Assembly: GCF_016908635.1 (NCBI RefSeq)
Contig: NZ_JAFBEG010000001.1
Span: 248,001 to 312,000 of the forward strand
Length of the DNA stretch: 64,000 nt
Reading direction: 5' to 3'
Source: Sporohalobacter salinus
Lineage (GTDB): Bacteria; Bacillota; Halanaerobiia; Halobacteroidales; Acetohalobiaceae
A model generated the notes under the pieces. The model saw only the letters and a program-made list of their open reading frames with translations, was not told where the DNA came from and did not search any database. Of this stretch, positions 1-9,862 are shown one piece after another; positions within the stretch are counted from its first letter, which is position 1, and each line of letters starts with the position of its first letter. Made by a program: the position numbers and the translations under genes.

Positions 1-1128
1 GTTTTAGCGGGGATTATTGCTGGACTTGTGGCTGGAGCACTATATAATCAGTTCTATGACATAGATTTACCAGATTATTTAGGTTTTTTTGCTGGTAAAA
101 GGTTTGTTCCAATTATCACTGGAGCTTCATGTGTATTACTAGCTGGAATATTTGGCTATGTTTGGCCTCCAATTCAGATTGTTATTGAGATAGTAGGTAA
201 TTGGATTATTGGAGCAGGTGCATTAGGTGTTTTTGTTTATGGAGTTTTAAATAGATCGTTAATACCATTAGGATTACATCATGTTATGAATAGCTTTATT
301 TGGTTTGTATTTGGTGAATATACTAATGAAGCTGGTAAAGTAGTAACTGGTGATTTGTCAAGATTTTTTGCTGGTGATCCTAATGCAGGTAGTTTCATGG
401 CAGGGTTTTATCCAATCATGATGTTTGGTTTACCTGCGGCTGCATTAGCTATGTATCATACTGCAGAATCTAAAGATAAAAAAGAAGTATCAGGGGTTTT
501 ATTTAGTATGGCATTTACTTCATTTTTGACTGGGATTACAGAACCACTAGAATTTAGTTTTGTATTTTTAGCGCCATTTTTATATTTGATTCATTCATTA
601 TTAAGCGGAGTTTCAATGGCGGTTACTTATGTGTTGGGTATTAAGCATGGTTTTGGGTTTTCTGCTGGAGCAATTGATTATTTCTTAAATTATGGTTTAG
701 CTACTAAACCTTTTTTATTGATTCCAATAGGAATTGTAACTTCTACTGTCTATTACTTTTTATTTAAATTTGTAATTCAAAAGTTTGATTTGCCAACTCC
801 AGGAAGGGTAGGATCAGATGAGATAGAAAATGATATGAGTGTTATGCCAGATAAACACCAAGATTCTGTTGATGGAAGTATAGATAAAGCGAAAAGTTAC
901 ATTAACTATTTGGGTGGGGCAGATAATTTGGAGACAGTAGGAGCTTGTATTACTAGATTAAGGTTAACCGTTGAAGACACTAATAAGATTGATGAAAGTG
1001 GGCTAAAAAAGTTAGATGCCACAGAGGTGATTAAGTTAGATGAAGAAACTGTTCAGGTTGTAGTTGGTACTAAAGCAGAAAAGGTTGCAATTTCTATTAA
1101 TGAAGAATTAAATAATAGACAGCAATAA
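1..1128 (+). CDS. nagE: PTS N-acetylglucosamine-type EIICB permease (5' truncated by window)
   Basis: The reading frame is open from base 1, so the gene begins upstream. What remains is the C-terminal part of a glucose-family EIIC membrane domain (HHVMNSF substrate-loop region, several hydrophobic segments, GITEPLEF motif). A short linker and an EIIB domain follow, with the phosphorylated cysteine in GACITRLRL at about residue 305 of the visible part. No EIIA domain follows, so phosphate must come from a separate EIIA. It would import and phosphorylate GlcNAc or a related sugar. nagB starts 19 bases later, which supports an amino-sugar substrate over glucose. Confidence 0.85.
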   Translation, partial: VLAGIIAGLVAGALYNQFYDIDLPDYLGFFAGKRFVPIITGASCVLLAGIFGYVWPPIQIVIEIVGNWIIGAGALGVFVYGVLNRSLIPLGLHHVMNSFIWFVFGEYTNEAGKVVTGDLSRFFAGDPNAGSFMAGFYPIMMFGLPAAALAMYHTAESKDKKEVSGVLFSMAFTSFLTGITEPLEFSFVFLAPFLYLIHSLLSGVSMAVTYVLGIKHGFGFSAGAIDYFLNYGLATKPFLLIPIGIVTSTVYYFLFKFVIQKFDLPTPGRVGSDEIENDMSVMPDKHQDSVDGSIDKAKSYINYLGGADNLETVGACITRLRLTVEDTNKIDESGLKKLDATEVIKLDEETVQVVVGTKAEKVAISINEELNNRQQ

Positions 1129-1147
1129 GTATATTGGAGGTAAGATA

Positions 1148-1879
1148 ATGAGATTGCAAGTTTTAGAAGATTATGAAGAAATGAGTGTTAAAGCTGCTAG
1201 TATTGTTGCTAGCCAAGTTACCTTAAAGCCGAATTCTAATTTAGGATTGGCTACAGGATCTACTCCTTTAGGTATGTATAATAATTTAATTAGAATGTAT
1301 AAAAAAAATTTAATTAACTTTGAGGAAGTGGTTACTTTTAATTTAGATGAGTATGTAGGATTGCCTGCTGATCATCCTCAAAGTTATCATTATTATATGT
1401 TTGATAACTTTTTTGATAAAGTAAATATTCCCCCAGAAAAAATATATATTCCTTCGGGAGTAGGAGATAATTTAAAGCAAATTTGTAAAAAATATGATCA
1501 AAGCATTAATAGTCATGGAGGGATCGATTTACAAGTTCTAGGGATTGGGAAGAATGGTCATATTGGATTTAATGAACCAGATAATAAATTAAGAACAAAT
1601 ACCCATGTTGTAAAATTAACAGAAGAGACTATTAATGATAATAGCCGATTTTTTGATTCAATAGATGATGTTCCTAAAAAAGCAATTTCAATGGGAATGA
1701 GTTCAATTATGAAGTCTAAAAAAATCCTATTATTAGCTAGTGGAGAACAAAAAGCAGAAGCAATTAAAAAAGCAATAAATGGAGAAATTACAACAGAACA
1801 TCCTGCTTCACTATTGCAATTGCACTCAGATGTTACTATTTTAGTTGATAAGGATGCAGCTAAATTGTTAAATGGATAA
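1148..1879 (+). CDS. nagB: Glucosamine-6-phosphate deaminase
   Basis: 243 aa, normal length for the family. It converts glucosamine-6-phosphate to fructose-6-phosphate and ammonia in the cytoplasm. Visible motifs are LGLATGSTPLGMY (phosphate binding), FNLDEYVGL (catalytic Asp region), GIGKNGHIGFNEP and the lid segment THVVKLTEET. The ATG follows a good ribosome binding site (GGAGG at about 1137-1141). It lies directly after the GlcNAc permease, so the two form an uptake-and-catabolism unit. No nagA is visible; it may lie upstream of the window or elsewhere. Confidence 0.95.
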   Translation: MRLQVLEDYEEMSVKAASIVASQVTLKPNSNLGLATGSTPLGMYNNLIRMYKKNLINFEEVVTFNLDEYVGLPADHPQSYHYYMFDNFFDKVNIPPEKIYIPSGVGDNLKQICKKYDQSINSHGGIDLQVLGIGKNGHIGFNEPDNKLRTNTHVVKLTEETINDNSRFFDSIDDVPKKAISMGMSSIMKSKKILLLASGEQKAEAIKKAINGEITTEHPASLLQLHSDVTILVDKDAAKLLNG

Positions 1880-2025: not shown

Positions 2026-3921
2026 TTACTTTTGATTATTTTGATTAATAGCCTTAATTTTTTGCCATGGTCCCCTCCGATTAGTTCCTGGTTCCATGCC
2101 ATAATTCCACCATTTTGCTTTCCAAATTGCTTTATTATAAGTTACTCTATCTCCTCCCCAATAAGTTGCATAAGGATTCCAAACTGGAATGTCTGAATCA
2201 TTTTCGTTTTTAACTAACGCTGTAATAACACTACTTTTACTTTGACCATAATCATTACTTAATTCAGCATAATACTCATAACTTCCAGGAAGCTTATTAG
2301 ATACTGAGTATTCAATAACTTGTTTTTCAGAGGAATTAGGATTCAAATTAACTACTTTAACCACCTGATTATTTTCATAAAGTCTCATCTCTTGTGCAGA
2401 GTTATTAGCCGGAACTGTAACCAAAATTTTATAGCTACTACTATTGTTATTTTGATCTATAGTTACTTCGGCAGATCCAGGTTTTTGATTAGAACTTCCT
2501 TTATCTTCAAAACCGACTACTGTATTAGCATGATTTAAGTCGCGATTACTAGCGTTATAATTAGCAGCGTTCCAGACACCTGAATTTGGATATTGGTTGC
2601 CATCTACTGCTGTTACTAAAACATAACCATTAGCTAATAATCGTTTTATAGCTTCAATATCTTGATTATCCTTAACGTCAATGTAATATGTTTGAGGAAC
2701 CTTACTTCTGAATTGTGGTGCCGATCTAAATGCTTCTTCACTTCCCCAACTTGAAACATCACCATCATAACCATCATAAGGCATTTTTGCCCAACTGGAA
2801 ACACCTAAATTGGCATTTACATTAACTATATCTGGCACCGAAGATCCTCTATCTTGACCACCATTTACTAAGCTATAAGTAAAGGCAGGACTTAATGTTT
2901 TATTGGCATCAAAAGTAGATAGATCCCAATTTCTATCTCTAGCTTCGAAAAATCCATTTGTATAATAAGTCATAGCCCAAGCTGCACATGAACCTTCTTC
3001 TCCTTGATTTCCTACTGGTGGAAAATATTTTGATTTTGAGTGATCTACTTGATTATTTTGAGATGATTCTGAAAATAATTGCAACACTTTATTACTGTCA
3101 ATAACTCTAATTCTATCTTTCTTTTTAGCTTCTTTCCACTCCTCAGGAGTTAAAGGTTTATATCCAGTACCATGACCATTAATAATTTGATTTCCTTTTG
3201 TTGCTGATAAATTTCTTTCATTGTTTTTAGTAAAATTATCAATATCTTCATCAGTTAATTTTCGAGATACATCTTTTAAGTTAATAGGTTTAGATTTTAA
3301 GGTAGGACTTTTCTTAGCTGAAACATTAGTAACGGATACGGATTTTGTTGAGGAAGGCCTAACATTAATTGGAACTTGATTAGAAGTATAAGTATTAACT
3401 GGATTGCTATCATAGTTATTGTAGATTTCAACTGAAAAATGATTTATTCTCCCTGAACTATAACTACCATTTTTTACTATTAAAGAGATATCTTCATTGT
3501 TAAACGGCATTAATTCTGTGATATCTAAGACGAGCTTCTCATTGCTATCGAATGGTACATTTCCTCCTTTGGAACGTACATCTTGAGGATAAAAAGTTTT
3601 AGAACTTGTCCCACTTTGAACTTTAATTGTCCATTGTCCCCGATTATTTCCTTCTAACTTAAAAACAGCAATGGCTTGAGGTTGATAATCATCTCTTGGA
3701 TCTGCAATAAATATTGGAAAACTATTATTTATTGCAGCTTGATATGTGATATACACAGATCCATCATTAAATGTCCCCCAATTTTCCCCCCAAGAGTTAA
3801 TCAGCTTCAATCGTCCTTCAGAAGCGGCACCTGCACTTAGACTAAAACTTACTATCATCATGGAACTAAGAACCAGACACAATACCACCAATGATAAATA
3901 GAACTTATCACTTCTTTTCAT
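2026..3921 (-). CDS. Secreted C1 (papain-like) peptidase with permuted Asn motif and C-terminal carbohydrate-binding module
   Basis: 631 aa from the ATG at 3919-3921, which follows a strong GGGGGAG site; an in-frame ATG nine codons upstream would place that site inside the protein. Residues 1-33 are a signal peptide. Catalytic Cys312 lies in VGNQGEEGSCAAWA with the oxyanion Gln306, and catalytic His464 is in LNHANTVVGF. The Asn motif expected about 15 residues after the His is absent there. Instead NSWGENWG occurs at residues 42-49, right after the signal peptide. A beta-rich domain (about 80-170), a linker, an Ig-like domain (about 483-580) and a WNPYATYWGGDRV-type chitin/carbohydrate-binding module (about 587-628) are also visible. 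It is the only minus-strand gene. Peptidase family call is firm; substrate is unknown. Confidence 0.85.
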   Translation of the reverse strand: MKRSDKFYLSLVVLCLVLSSMMIVSFSLSAGAASEGRLKLINSWGENWGTFNDGSVYITYQAAINNSFPIFIADPRDDYQPQAIAVFKLEGNNRGQWTIKVQSGTSSKTFYPQDVRSKGGNVPFDSNEKLVLDITELMPFNNEDISLIVKNGSYSSGRINHFSVEIYNNYDSNPVNTYTSNQVPINVRPSSTKSVSVTNVSAKKSPTLKSKPINLKDVSRKLTDEDIDNFTKNNERNLSATKGNQIINGHGTGYKPLTPEEWKEAKKKDRIRVIDSNKVLQLFSESSQNNQVDHSKSKYFPPVGNQGEEGSCAAWAMTYYTNGFFEARDRNWDLSTFDANKTLSPAFTYSLVNGGQDRGSSVPDIVNVNANLGVSSWAKMPYDGYDGDVSSWGSEEAFRSAPQFRSKVPQTYYIDVKDNQDIEAIKRLLANGYVLVTAVDGNQYPNSGVWNAANYNASNRDLNHANTVVGFEDKGSSNQKPGSAEVTIDQNNNSSSYKILVTVPANNSAQEMRLYENNQVVKVVNLNPNSSEKQVIEYSVSNKLPGSYEYYAELSNDYGQSKSSVITALVKNENDSDIPVWNPYATYWGGDRVTYNKAIWKAKWWNYGMEPGTNRRGPWQKIKAINQNNQK

Positions 3922-4753: not shown

Positions 4754-5323
4754 GTGGCTTATATAGAGTATATATTAAACCAGCGTCCTATAATTGCAGC
4801 AGTTAAGGAACCATCTGATTTAGAGGAGATCCCTTCAGATAAGATTGCTGCTATATTTGTACTAGGAAGCGATATCTCTACTTTATCCAAGATTGTTGAT
4901 GCTGCAATTAAACTTGATAAGTTGGTTTTCTTACATCTTGATTTAGTTAAAGGAGTTGCTAAAGATAAGTATGGAATTAAGTATTTAGCAGAAGAGATTG
5001 GTATTGATGGTGTAATTACCACCAAAAGTTATTTGATTAAGGAAGCTAAAAAACAGGATTTAATTACGGTACAGCGGTTATTTATTCTTGATTCTTCTGC
5101 TGTTGAGATGGGGATTAATGTAATTAATAAATCTAGTCCTGATTTGGTAGAAGTTTTACCAGGGATAGCCTTTCCATATTTAGCTGAAAGATTAAAGGAT
5201 GAATTAGAACAGCCTATTATTGCTGGTGGATTGATTAGAAATAATAAAGATGTAGATAGAATATTAGATTTTGAAGCCTTAGCTATTTCGACTAGTAGTA
5301 AAGAATTGTGGAATTGGTCTTGA
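4754..5323 (+). CDS. glpP: Glycerol-3-phosphate-responsive antiterminator GlpP
   Basis: 189 aa, a typical length for the GlpP family (TIM-barrel-like RNA-binding antiterminators described for Bacillus glp genes). Starts at GTG after AGGGGG. Family segments seen include NQRPIIAAVKE at the N-terminus, VFLHLDLVKG, DGVITTKSYLI, DLVEVLPGIAFPYL and PIIAGGLI. It sits just before glpF and glpK. Two leaders downstream (5434-5546 and 8263-8346) each carry a terminator and a shared element, which fits GlpP acting in the presence of glycerol-3-phosphate to let polymerase read through. Confidence 0.9.
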   Translation: MAYIEYILNQRPIIAAVKEPSDLEEIPSDKIAAIFVLGSDISTLSKIVDAAIKLDKLVFLHLDLVKGVAKDKYGIKYLAEEIGIDGVITTKSYLIKEAKKQDLITVQRLFILDSSAVEMGINVINKSSPDLVEVLPGIAFPYLAERLKDELEQPIIAGGLIRNNKDVDRILDFEALAISTSSKELWNWS

Positions 5324-5342
5324 AATTTTTTAGATTTATAAC

Positions 5343-5372
5343 TTGACAAATGACAAAAAAATGATTTATAAT
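5343..5372 (+). promoter_or_regulatory. Sigma-A promoter for the glpF leader
   Basis: TTGACA (5343-5348), 18-base spacer, TATAAT (5367-5372): consensus hexamers. Transcription from about 5379 would run into the attenuator at 5434-5546. Confidence 0.75.
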
Positions 5373-5433
5373 AAACACAAGGTTAAGTTGTTTTTTAAAT
5401 GTCTGAAAATTTAAAATATCTGAATAATTAGAT

Positions 5434-5546
5434 GTGGACTGAGAAGAGGAGAAAGTCCTATCTAATCATTAAAGGTAGGTAGATTTCCTGCTGCAAAAGT
5501 GGGCGAACTATGCTTACTTACCTTAGTGATTAGATAGGACTTTTTT
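5434..5546 (+). promoter_or_regulatory. GlpP-type antiterminator/terminator leader before glpFK
   Basis: The terminator is a perfect 15-bp stem, AGTCCTATCTAATCA (5454-5468) with TGATTAGATAGGACT (5527-5541), then T6. It encloses an inner stem, GGTAGGTA (5474-5481) with TACTTACC (5515-5522). Just upstream, GGACT (5436-5440) can instead pair with AGTCC (5454-5458), which is the 5' base of the terminator stem. The purine-rich loop of that alternative hairpin carries GTGGACTGA...GAGAAA (5434-5454). The same sequence pattern and spacing recur before glpA. GlpP is the likely ligand protein because its gene is immediately upstream. Confidence 0.7.
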
Positions 5547-5623
5547 ATATTTAAATTATAATGATTTTAAAAAGGAGGGGGTATATTAATAAAGTAATTG
5601 CAATAATTATTGATTTGGAGGGG

Positions 5624-5733
5624 GTTATGATGTGCTGAGGGAGTAGGGAGAATAGATAATTTTTTGATAGTTGCAGGATGATTAGGCGGCTCCTTGTTAT
5701 GATGTGCTGAGGGAGTAGGGAGAATAGATAATT
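5624..5733. repeat. 38-bp exact direct repeat, two copies
   Basis: The same 38 bases (starting GTTATGATGTGCTGAGGGAG) occur at 5624-5661 and 5696-5733, a 72-base period. They lie between the glpF leader terminator and the decayed glpF fragment. No terminal inverted repeats or transposase are visible, so this looks like a local duplication. Confidence 0.85.
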
Positions 5734-5734
5734 C

Positions 5735-5845
5735 AAAGGAAGAAGGATAATAGGAGCATATTTGGCTGAATTTTTTGGGACTATGATTCTGATATTTTTA
5801 AGTTATGAAAATGATTTAGAAGTTTACAGAGGATTTAGTTCTTAA
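5735..5845 (+). pseudogene. Remnant of a second glpF/aquaporin-family N-terminus
   Basis: The frame at 5753-5800 reads GAYLAEFFGTMILIFL, closely like the start of a MIP-family channel; the intact glpF 150 bases downstream has GECIAELIGTAILLFF at the same place. After this segment the frame loses similarity and stops at 5843-5845. There is no start codon with a ribosome binding site. It is best read as the scar of an old partial duplication or replacement of glpF. Confidence 0.6.
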
Positions 5846-5904
5846 AAGATTTTATCCTAGGGTTAAACTTTGATTCTATAATATGAATAGAGGAGGAGTT
5901 AGGT

Positions 5905-6705
5905 ATGAAAAAGGAGAATTTATTTGGTGAATGCATTGCTGAATTAATTGGAACAGCTATTTTATTGTTTTTTGGAGCTGGGGTAGTTGCTAATTTGTTA
6001 TTGGTTGAAGCTAATATTGGGTGGTGGGAATTATGTTTATTATGGGGACTAGGAGTAGCAATGGCAGTTTATATTACTGGTGGAGTTTCTGGAGCTCATA
6101 TTAATCCGTCAGTAACAGTTGGTTTAGCAGCAGCAGGAGATTTTCCTTGGAAAAAGGTGCTTCCTTATTGTATTTCACAAACAGCTGGTGCTTTTTTAGG
6201 GGCAGCAGGAGTTTATTTTATTTATGCTGAACAATTTGTTGAAAAGACAGCAGTTAATATGACCATCTTTCATACTATTGCTATGGATAACATCTCTAAT
6301 CCGAAGGCGATGATGATAGAGTTAATTTTAACAATGATCTTATTAATGGGAGTAATGGCTATGACTGAGCCATTAAATAGTACAGCACCAAAAGGATTAG
6401 GTGCAGCAATGTCCATTGGTATTTTAGTAGCTGGAATTGGTGGAATTGGTGGAAAGTTAACTGGTTTTGCAATTAATCCAGCTAGAGATTTTGGACCTAA
6501 GTTATTTACAGCCTTGGCTGGTTGGGGTGCGACTCCATTTACAGAGCATAATTTTTATTTTTGGGTACCAATTATTGGTCCATTATTAGGAGGAGTTTTA
6601 GGGGCTATTATTTATAAGAAGCTCTTGAGAGCACATTTGCCAGAAGTATGGAAGAATAAAGATGAAACTACTGGAATTGAAACTGGTGAAACTACAACTG
6701 CATAA
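5905..6705 (+). CDS. glpF: Glycerol uptake facilitator (MIP/aquaglyceroporin)
   Basis: 266 aa, six membrane spans expected plus two half-helices. The second NPA box is canonical (AINPARDFGPKLF, about residues 190-202). The first reads GAHINPSVT, with Ser in place of the usual Ala. The R of NPAR (selectivity filter) is present. It passes glycerol through the cytoplasmic membrane for phosphorylation by GlpK, whose gene follows 35 bases on. RBS AGGAGG precedes the ATG. Expression is probably controlled by the GlpP leader about 360 bases upstream; a TATAAT at 5877-5882 lacks a convincing -35 partner. Confidence 0.93.
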   Translation: MKKENLFGECIAELIGTAILLFFGAGVVANLLLVEANIGWWELCLLWGLGVAMAVYITGGVSGAHINPSVTVGLAAAGDFPWKKVLPYCISQTAGAFLGAAGVYFIYAEQFVEKTAVNMTIFHTIAMDNISNPKAMMIELILTMILLMGVMAMTEPLNSTAPKGLGAAMSIGILVAGIGGIGGKLTGFAINPARDFGPKLFTALAGWGATPFTEHNFYFWVPIIGPLLGGVLGAIIYKKLLRAHLPEVWKNKDETTGIETGETTTA

Positions 6706-6740
6706 ATAAAAACTTTAATATATTTAAGGAGGAGAAATAA

Positions 6741-8234
<1,494 letters not shown>

Positions 8235-8262
8235 AAGTAAAATCTAATATTTGATTATATAT

Positions 8263-8346
8263 GTGGAATGAATAAAAGAGAAACCACATTTAGACACCTA
8301 GGGAGTAGTATACCTAATTTGAAGAGGGTCTAAGTGTGGTTTTTTC
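8263..8346 (+). promoter_or_regulatory. Second GlpP-type antiterminator/terminator leader, before glpA
   Basis: The terminator pairs AACCACATTTAGAC (8282-8295) with GTCTAAGTGTGGTT (8329-8342), one G-U pair, then a T-run; a small inner stem pairs TAGG (8299-8302) with CCTA (8313-8316). Upstream GTGG (8263-8266) can pair with CCAC (8284-8287), which would break the terminator. The loop carries GTGGAATGA...GAGAAA with the same 15-base offset as in the glpF leader. No strong promoter is seen, so it probably governs read-through from glpK into glpA. Confidence 0.65.
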
Positions 8347-8383
8347 ATATTTGATATAATTTTAATTGAAGGAGGGAATAACG

Positions 8384-9862
8384 ATGGAAGATAAAACAGA
8401 AGTTTTAATTATTGGTGGTGGTGTAATTGGAGCTTCAATAGCACGAGAGTTGAGTAAATATCAATTAGATATTATGTTAGTTGAAAAAGAGAGTGATGTA
8501 GCTGATGGAGGGCCTAGTAAAGCTAATACTGCTCTCATTCATGCTGGATTTAACGCTGATTCTAATAAATTAAAAGGACAATTAAATGTTAAAGGAAATA
8601 AAATGTACGACCAGTTGACTGAAGAATTAAATGTTCCTTTTGAACGGAATGGTGCTATGGTAGTAGCCCAAAAGGAAGAAGAAATTACAGTATTAGAAGA
8701 GATTTTAGAAAATGGGAAGAGAAATGGAGTATCAGATTTAGAGATTATTACAGGGAAGCGGATTTTTGAATTGGAACCTAACTTAAATAATAAAGCAATT
8801 GCTGCTTTATATGCACCAACGGCTGGGATTATCTGTCCTTATGAGTTAACTATTGCTTTGGCTCAGAATGCAGCTGTAAATGGAGCAAATATTCTATTGG
8901 AGACAGAAGTATTGGATATAGAAATAGAAGATGATTATAAAATAGTACAGACTAATAAAGGTGAGATAAAAGCTAAGATAGTGATTAATGCTGCTGGTCT
9001 ATATTCAGATAAGATTGCTAAAATGGTAGGGATTGATGATTTTGAAATTATTCCGCGTAAAGGAGAATATTATGTCTATGATAAGAAACTTGGAGATGAA
9101 ATTAACCACACAATTTTCCAAGTGCCGACAGGAGTTAGTAAAGGTGTTGTAGTTACTCCTACTGTTGATGGTAATCTATTAGTGGGACCTAATGCTGAAG
9201 AAATTGAGAATAAGGATGATGTATCAACTACTCAACCTGGTTTAGATGAAGTATTTCAAGGAGCACAGAAGACTTTGCCAAGTTTAAGTAAACATGGGGT
9301 GATTAACCAATTTGCTGGTTTGCGTCCAGCTTATAAAGATACTAGTGATTTTATTATTGAAGCTAGCGAGAAGGTTGATGGATTCATTAATGTTGCAGGT
9401 ATTCAATCACCTGGATTATCTTGTGCTCCAGCTATTGCTGATTTAGTAGTAGACTTAGTAAACGAAGTAAAAGAGGGATTAACTTTTGCTCCTGATTTTG
9501 ATCCTTATCGAGAAGAACCAGTAAGATTTAGAGAATTATCACCAGAAAAACAGGCAGATTTAATTAAAGAGGATAACAGATACGGCCAGATAATTTGCCG
9601 TTGTGAAACAGTAACCAAAGGAGAAATTATTGATGCTATTCAAGGACCAGTAGGTGCTAGATCAGTAAGAGCAGTACGCCGAAGAACAAGAGCCGGAATG
9701 GGGCGCTGTCAGGGAGGCTTCTGCGGACCAAAGGTAGTAGAAATTTTAGCTGAGGAACTAGGATTATCTCCTGTTGAGATTACAGAAAAAGGGAAAGGAT
9801 CGGATATCTTAGTAGATAAAACTAAAGCTCCGTTATTAAGAGAGGTGAATAAGGGTGAATAA
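8384..9862 (+). CDS. glpA: FAD-dependent glycerol-3-phosphate dehydrogenase with C-terminal BFD-like [2Fe-2S] domain
   Basis: 492 aa from the ATG at 8384, set by GAAGGAGGG at 8368-8375; an in-frame TTG at 8366 overlaps that site. The N-terminal dinucleotide fold (VLIIGGGVIGASIARELSK, residues 7-25) and a DAO-type FAD domain are followed by a BFD-like domain with cysteines near 405, 407, 442 and 447 (CRCETV, GRCQGGFC). The protein oxidises glycerol-3-phosphate to dihydroxyacetone phosphate at the membrane surface and passes electrons onward. It overlaps the next gene by 8 bases. The arrangement with an oxidoreductase and a DUF1667 protein is a known Firmicute variant of GlpABC. Confidence 0.88.
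   Translation: MEDKTEVLIIGGGVIGASIARELSKYQLDIMLVEKESDVADGGPSKANTALIHAGFNADSNKLKGQLNVKGNKMYDQLTEELNVPFERNGAMVVAQKEEEITVLEEILENGKRNGVSDLEIITGKRIFELEPNLNNKAIAALYAPTAGIICPYELTIALAQNAAVNGANILLETEVLDIEIEDDYKIVQTNKGEIKAKIVINAAGLYSDKIAKMVGIDDFEIIPRKGEYYVYDKKLGDEINHTIFQVPTGVSKGVVVTPTVDGNLLVGPNAEEIENKDDVSTTQPGLDEVFQGAQKTLPSLSKHGVINQFAGLRPAYKDTSDFIIEASEKVDGFINVAGIQSPGLSCAPAIADLVVDLVNEVKEGLTFAPDFDPYREEPVRFRELSPEKQADLIKEDNRYGQIICRCETVTKGEIIDAIQGPVGARSVRAVRRRTRAGMGRCQGGFCGPKVVEILAEELGLSPVEITEKGKGSDILVDKTKAPLLREVNKGE

Follow-up and report, generated by a model that had tools for sequence, protein, structure and literature searches.

The 64,000-nucleotide stretch of the Sporohalobacter salinus genome analysed here (contig NZ_JAFBEG010000001.1, positions 248,001 to 312,000 of the forward strand; hereafter the window) carries a minus-strand gene for a 631-residue protein, P0001, in which the conserved segments of a papain-type peptidase stand in exchanged order. 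Papain is a model enzyme, and the Cys-His-Asn order of its catalytic residues is a textbook constant. In P0001 the Asn comes first. Circular permutation is the best reading of this layout because the same order is kept in six genomes of one class, while other phyla hold the same pieces in normal order. We conclude that P0001 is very probably a secreted papain-type (C1) cysteine peptidase and a natural circular permutant, with new termini in the loop that joins the His strand to the Asn strand.

Exchanged catalytic segments in P0001

A preliminary description of the window had placed an NSWG-type motif with Asn42 right after the signal peptide, located Cys312 and His464, and proposed a circular permutation in which the old C-terminal part and a beta domain had moved to the front. 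Translation of the minus-strand gene confirmed all three positions. The gene and its parts, all on the minus strand, are as follows.

2026..3921 (-): whole gene of P0001, very probably a circularly permuted secreted C1-type peptidase, 631 amino acids plus stop; translated without internal stop, one copy in the genome
3927..3933 (-): likely ribosome-binding site GGGGGAG, 5 nucleotides upstream of the ATG at 3921; read from the sequence
3820..3921 (-): signal peptide, residues 1-34 (...SLSAGAAS), without lipobox; read from the sequence, with a putative cleavage site
3724..3819 (-): displaced Asn segment, residues 35-66, comprising the native third catalytic strand (RLKLINSWGENWG) and the GSVYITY strand; normal-order profile match at 38-66, E 4e-8, NSWG invariant in the permuted family
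3796..3798 (-): codon of Asn42, predicted catalytic Asn; homologous to the Asn after the His in normal-order relatives
3412..3723 (-): accessory beta module, residues 67-170; profile match at 36-173, E 2.6e-18, all-beta in AlphaFold2 (AF2) models, weak C2-like Foldseek matches
3070..3411 (-): linker and putative pro-region, residues 171-284 (LTDEDIDNF...IINGHGTGYKPLTPEEWKEAKKKDRIRVID); aligns with the N-termini of the normal-order proteins L021, L043 and L017
2500..3069 (-): papain core from the native N-terminus to the His strand, residues 285-474; PF00112 E 1.2e-6, normal-order core profile E 1.5e-45
2986..2988 (-): codon of Cys312, predicted nucleophile (GNQGEEGSCAAWA), with Q306 as the oxyanion Gln; invariant in the permuted family
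2530..2532 (-): codon of His464, predicted catalytic His (NHANTVVGF); invariant in the permuted family
2209..2469 (-): fibronectin type III (FnIII)-like beta domain, residues 485-571, in the window protein only; strands in the AF2 model, weak full-length Foldseek matches to FnIII modules of chitinase or carbohydrate-binding module (CBM) type
2062..2181 (-): putative CBM5/12 chitin-binding-type module, residues 581-620; PF02839 E 1.6e-4, below the cut-off, and phmmer matches to chitinase CBMs, best E 7e-8

Directly behind its signal peptide P0001 reads EGRLKLINSWGENWGTFNDGSVYITY; residues L38 to G49 are LKLINSWGENWG, followed by GSVYITY. The other papain motifs stand far downstream of this segment, as GNQGEEGSCAAW with Q306 and C312, and as NHANTVVGF with H464. 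Oxyanion Gln, Cys nucleophile and His have C1 motifs in C1 order, Cys312 preceding His464 in the chain. The N[SA]WG Asn that C1 enzymes carry downstream of the His is not found there; the segment homologous to it lies at residues 35-66. Around and after H464 the sequence is HANTVVGFEDKG, and no second Asn/Trp motif follows, as had been noticed before. Correspondingly, the Pfam Peptidase_C1 profile (PF00112) matches residues 290-475 (29.2 bits against a cut-off of 20.7) over profile positions 3-179 of 220 and stops just before the Asn motif. The front half of P0001 holds no remnant papain Cys/His motif, and the back half no remnant Asn motif. By its sequence, P0001 is a C1 homologue with altered chain order rather than a canonical member of the family.

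We built test profiles solely from C1 proteins of normal order and ran them on P0001. The Asn-segment profile matched residues 38-66 with 30.0 bits (E 4e-8), far above chance: among 2000 shuffled versions of P0001 the highest score was 9.5 bits. Extended to include the beta module, the profile matched residues 36-173 (63.5 bits, E 2.6e-18), and the Cys-to-His core profile matched residues 285-474 (152 bits, E 1.5e-45). Both blocks, which lie side by side in normal-order proteins, are thus present in P0001, with their order exchanged. P0001 thus has what is expected of a natural circular permutant: both pieces are homologous to parts of unpermuted proteins, their order is swapped, and the new ends meet at one point. 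That point lies exactly where the preliminary description had put the break, namely in the loop linking His strand and Asn strand. The same description had expected the normal Asn about 15 residues after the His, and this figure needs correction: across normal-order relatives the spacing is 18-28 residues, mostly 24.

The permuted family and its unpermuted counterparts

When the front segment was searched against 59 genomes belonging to the class Halanaerobiia, the swapped order turned up in five more genomes, from three further genera, giving six genomes of salt-loving bacteria in four genera and three families. Counterparts of four of these five were also found among genome contigs (Halanaerobium kushneri, Halanaerobium sp. 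5-U2, H. saccharolyticum WC1 and a Halanaerobiales metagenome-assembled genome, MAG), with family members aligned over the Asn segment and beta module as query; a scan of the genome contigs with P0001 alone as query returned no relatives. All six permuted proteins share the order Asn segment, beta module, linker, pro-region, Cys, His. The relatives are 37-47% identical to the window protein, and NSWG, Gln, Cys and His are invariant throughout the family. They have lipobox-type signals, with InlB-type repeats or other domains before the Asn segment, and end 13-21 residues past the catalytic His, three of the five at 21. Their C-termini fall at the site where the Asn strand normally comes, whereas the window protein adds its FnIII-like domain and putative CBM. 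A second or frameshifted NSWG was sought in the 560-900 bases behind the permuted genes and not found, and no permuted relative was found in viral contigs or phage records. Some candidate relatives proved to have the normal order, namely the Leptospira protein whose core was the only match among plasmids and the Bacillota matches G119, G131, G159 and G368 of the permuted profile. None of these peptidases has an NCBIfam name.

The same beta module occurs in proteins of normal order from Chloroflexi, Thermoplasmata, WOR-3, Aerophobetes, Ignavibacteriae and a Bacteroidetes MAG, in which the Asn lies 24-28 residues after the His and the beta module directly behind NSWG. A profile of the permuted family aligns the permuted proteins without interruption, from position 1 to 459-461. 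On proteins of Haladaptatiplasma, Chloroflexi and Thermoplasmata it instead aligns as two blocks in reversed order within the same open reading frame (ORF), the back part of the profile first (174-267 to 456-458) and then the front part (2-5 to 158-207). The Haladaptatiplasma proteins begin with a pro-region (VIIDGHGTGLAPPSEEEY...) homologous to approximately residues 219-285 of P0001, and the homology of all parts indicates that P0001 corresponds to such a protein with its halves exchanged, the C-terminal one now leading into the N-terminal one.

In a joint tree of core plus Asn segment the six permuted proteins form one clade (96/99), which stands beside the two Haladaptatiplasma proteins (100/99), and a tree of the Asn segment plus beta module splits permuted from normal proteins (98/97). 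A single origin of the permuted group, resting on the Asn-segment and joint trees, is likely, though not proved. The permuted order is most simply taken as derived, as normal order is found in every one of the more distant C1 proteins of the core tree. Gene transfer between a Haladaptatiplasma archaeon and Halanaerobiia, in either direction, is possible.

Two further observations concern these relatives. L043 (G443 contig 22) is a second normal-order copy, so that two Haladaptatiplasma paralogues stand beside the permuted clade. The beta module of approximately 110 residues after NSWG (window 3412-3723; L017-L028), which has weak C2-like Foldseek matches and no Pfam family of its own, recurs behind NSWG in C1 proteins of many phyla.

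Predicted fold, activity and alternative explanations

AF2 modelled residues 35-631 of P0001 with a predicted TM score (pTM) of 0.72 and a predicted local distance difference test (pLDDT) score of 77, and residues 35-485 with a pTM of 0.88 and a pLDDT of 86, the first ten residues reaching 92. The model thus predicts a single folded unit made up of front segment, beta module and core, as freely oriented parts would not be expected to give a pTM of 0.88. The top match of the models among Protein Data Bank structures was xylellain, a C1 peptidase; Foldseek aligns only in chain order, so that the swapped segment could not be superposed by it.

The gene neighbourhood of the relatives bears on activity. 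In three Halanaerobium genomes (L010, L011 and L013) the next gene downstream of the permuted peptidase encodes a member of the chagasin family (I42), with two I42 domains in H. kushneri and one in the others. The H. kushneri gene lies 23 nucleotides from that of the peptidase:

L013:6395-7099 (+): secreted I42 inhibitor gene, H. kushneri; E 1.7e-32

Chagasins are inhibitors of C1 peptidases, and a chagasin gene in this position therefore speaks for activity of the permuted enzyme. I42 was matched in 4 of the 59 class genomes, three of them among the six with a permuted peptidase (hypergeometric P ~0.002, calculated by hand and ignoring shared ancestry). The permuted protein probably works like a papain. 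The remaining I42 match, L051 (G238), is in a class genome with neither a permuted peptidase nor a C1 match in these searches.

We propose that the ancestral gene encoded a signal, a pro-region, the Cys-to-His core, the Asn strand and the beta module, and that it most likely underwent tandem duplication and fusion. The fused gene would then have lost its front as far as the Asn strand in copy 1 and its back from a point shortly behind the His strand in copy 2. In the resulting protein the front segment would pack onto the core and give Asn42 to a Cys312-His464-Asn42 triad, with Gln306 as the oxyanion residue, while the beta module and the old pro-region would now form a connector inside the chain. 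Should activation remove the pro-region, two chains held together non-covalently would make up the mature enzyme. We put forward only tentatively, as a proposal that could well prove wrong, the fuller claim that this is the first natural permutation within C1 to be kept active and that its internalised pro-region makes activation split the chain, leaving the Asn on one part and the Cys and His on the other.

A rearrangement this drastic might have damaged catalysis and left the fold as an inactive pseudo-peptidase or a binding protein, a role that the chitin-binding-type module of the window protein would suit; yet none of Gln, Cys, His and Asn/Trp varies among proteins with only 37-47% identity to the window protein, and a chagasin gene adjoins three of the permuted genes, and we consider this improbable. 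Equally to be weighed is an Asn segment supplied in trans, with molecules swapping their N-terminal strands and the permuted gene working as a swapped oligomer. The 110 residues of linker and pro-region between beta module and core are long enough for such an exchange and are partly ill-ordered in the model (block pLDDT 45-51 near model residues 200-217), but AF2 predicts the single chain with confidence as one unit, making completion in cis look possible, and nothing specific supports the exchange, which we rate as distinctly improbable.

Artefact and coincidence fare worse. Circular permutation is expected to pass through a tandem fusion, and the gene might on that account be a decayed fusion of two papain domains, or else an assembly error. 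Against either stand the same order in open frames in six genomes, the three proteins that stop 21 residues after the His, and the lack of a remnant Cys/His motif in front, of an Asn motif behind and of any further readable NSWG in the next 560-900 bases, making it highly unlikely. Pfam does not recognise the front piece alone, as would be the case for an unrelated domain with a chance likeness to the Asn motif; this idea is refuted, with a negligible residual chance, by the homology of front piece and beta module, over approximately 140 residues, to the segment directly behind the His strand of normal-order proteins. No homologue placed the motif in an unrelated domain, and no normal Asn was found elsewhere in P0001, either of which would have spoken against a permutation.

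Some results do weigh against an active circular permutant of single origin. The window genome gave no I42 match. A core-only tree that included both archaeal copies did not recover the permuted group as a clean clade and was left unresolved. The AF2 alignment was shallow, with 27 rows, five of them permuted, and memory of papain folds may lie behind the AF2 model. Circular permutation of a C1 peptidase is nonetheless the reading that we prefer.

With respect to substrate, the window protein's CBM5/12 match scores 22.1 bits with PF02839, against a cut-off of 26.2, alongside a phmmer match to one chitinase CBM (E 7e-8). The FnIII-like domain and this module would probably hold the enzyme on chitin. 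The gene lies tail to tail with a nagB-like gene, which follows a gene for a permease of the phosphotransferase system type (window 1-1879, read by eye); neighbours and CBM suggest, but do not show, that the enzyme works on chitin-associated protein. On the other strand, adjoining the peptidase gene, window 4754-9862 holds an apparent glycerol-use cluster with GlpP-, GlpF-, GlpK- and GlpA-like ORFs (read by eye).

Relation to known papain-like enzymes

If our reading is correct, the papain order has been altered in nature and kept across several genera, with unpermuted relatives that are still alignable in every part. This would offer a clean test case for the origin and survival of a circular permutation, for the tolerance of the papain triad to a third residue at the N-terminus of the chain, and for the working of a pro-region used as an internal connector. 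It also has a practical side, as profile searches truncate such proteins: the Pfam match ends before the Asn, and the triad would be called incomplete.

Searches of an open-access library yielded no description of a circularly permuted C1/papain peptidase, or of the P0001 breakpoint in C1, and only a general classification of papain-like enzymes, in line with the earlier remark that no C1 peptidase of this layout is known to have been described. A 2023 survey of papain-family origins makes no mention of permutation (PMC10380794), and in the 2023 classification papain and cathepsins (cluster I) retain canonical structures (PMC10318531). We regard P0001 as a genuine natural circular permutation within C1 that has apparently gone undescribed.

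P0001 shares its Cys, His, Asn and Gln motifs with prokaryotic C1A papain-family peptidases of the xylellain type (PF00112). Whereas these have the order Cys, His, Asn, P0001 has the Asn first, with the native N- and C-terminal parts joined through the beta module and pro-region. Nearest to it in the joint tree are the proteins of the archaeon Ca. Haladaptatiplasma (L021 and L043), which likewise have the pro-region (GHGTG/GFGTG), core and beta module, with the junction NHANTVVGYDD...GAFKLINSWG, but are unpermuted.

Natural circular permutation of a papain-like fold is known from NlpC/P60-type enzymes (C92, C97/PPPDE and LRAT), in which the Cys helix, with or without beta-1', has moved behind the rest and the His precedes the Cys (PMC10318531). 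In P0001, by contrast, the Cys precedes the His, the part from the Asn strand to the end has moved forward, and there is no such Pfam match. OTU/LupA-like deubiquitinases (cluster V) have permuted beta-3/beta-4 with reversed strands, and the permuted beta-3 can carry the third catalytic residue (PMC10318531). P0001 belongs to another family, again without such a Pfam match, and here close unpermuted homologues show the event directly. The breakpoint of P0001 is different from the permutations described for other papain-like families.
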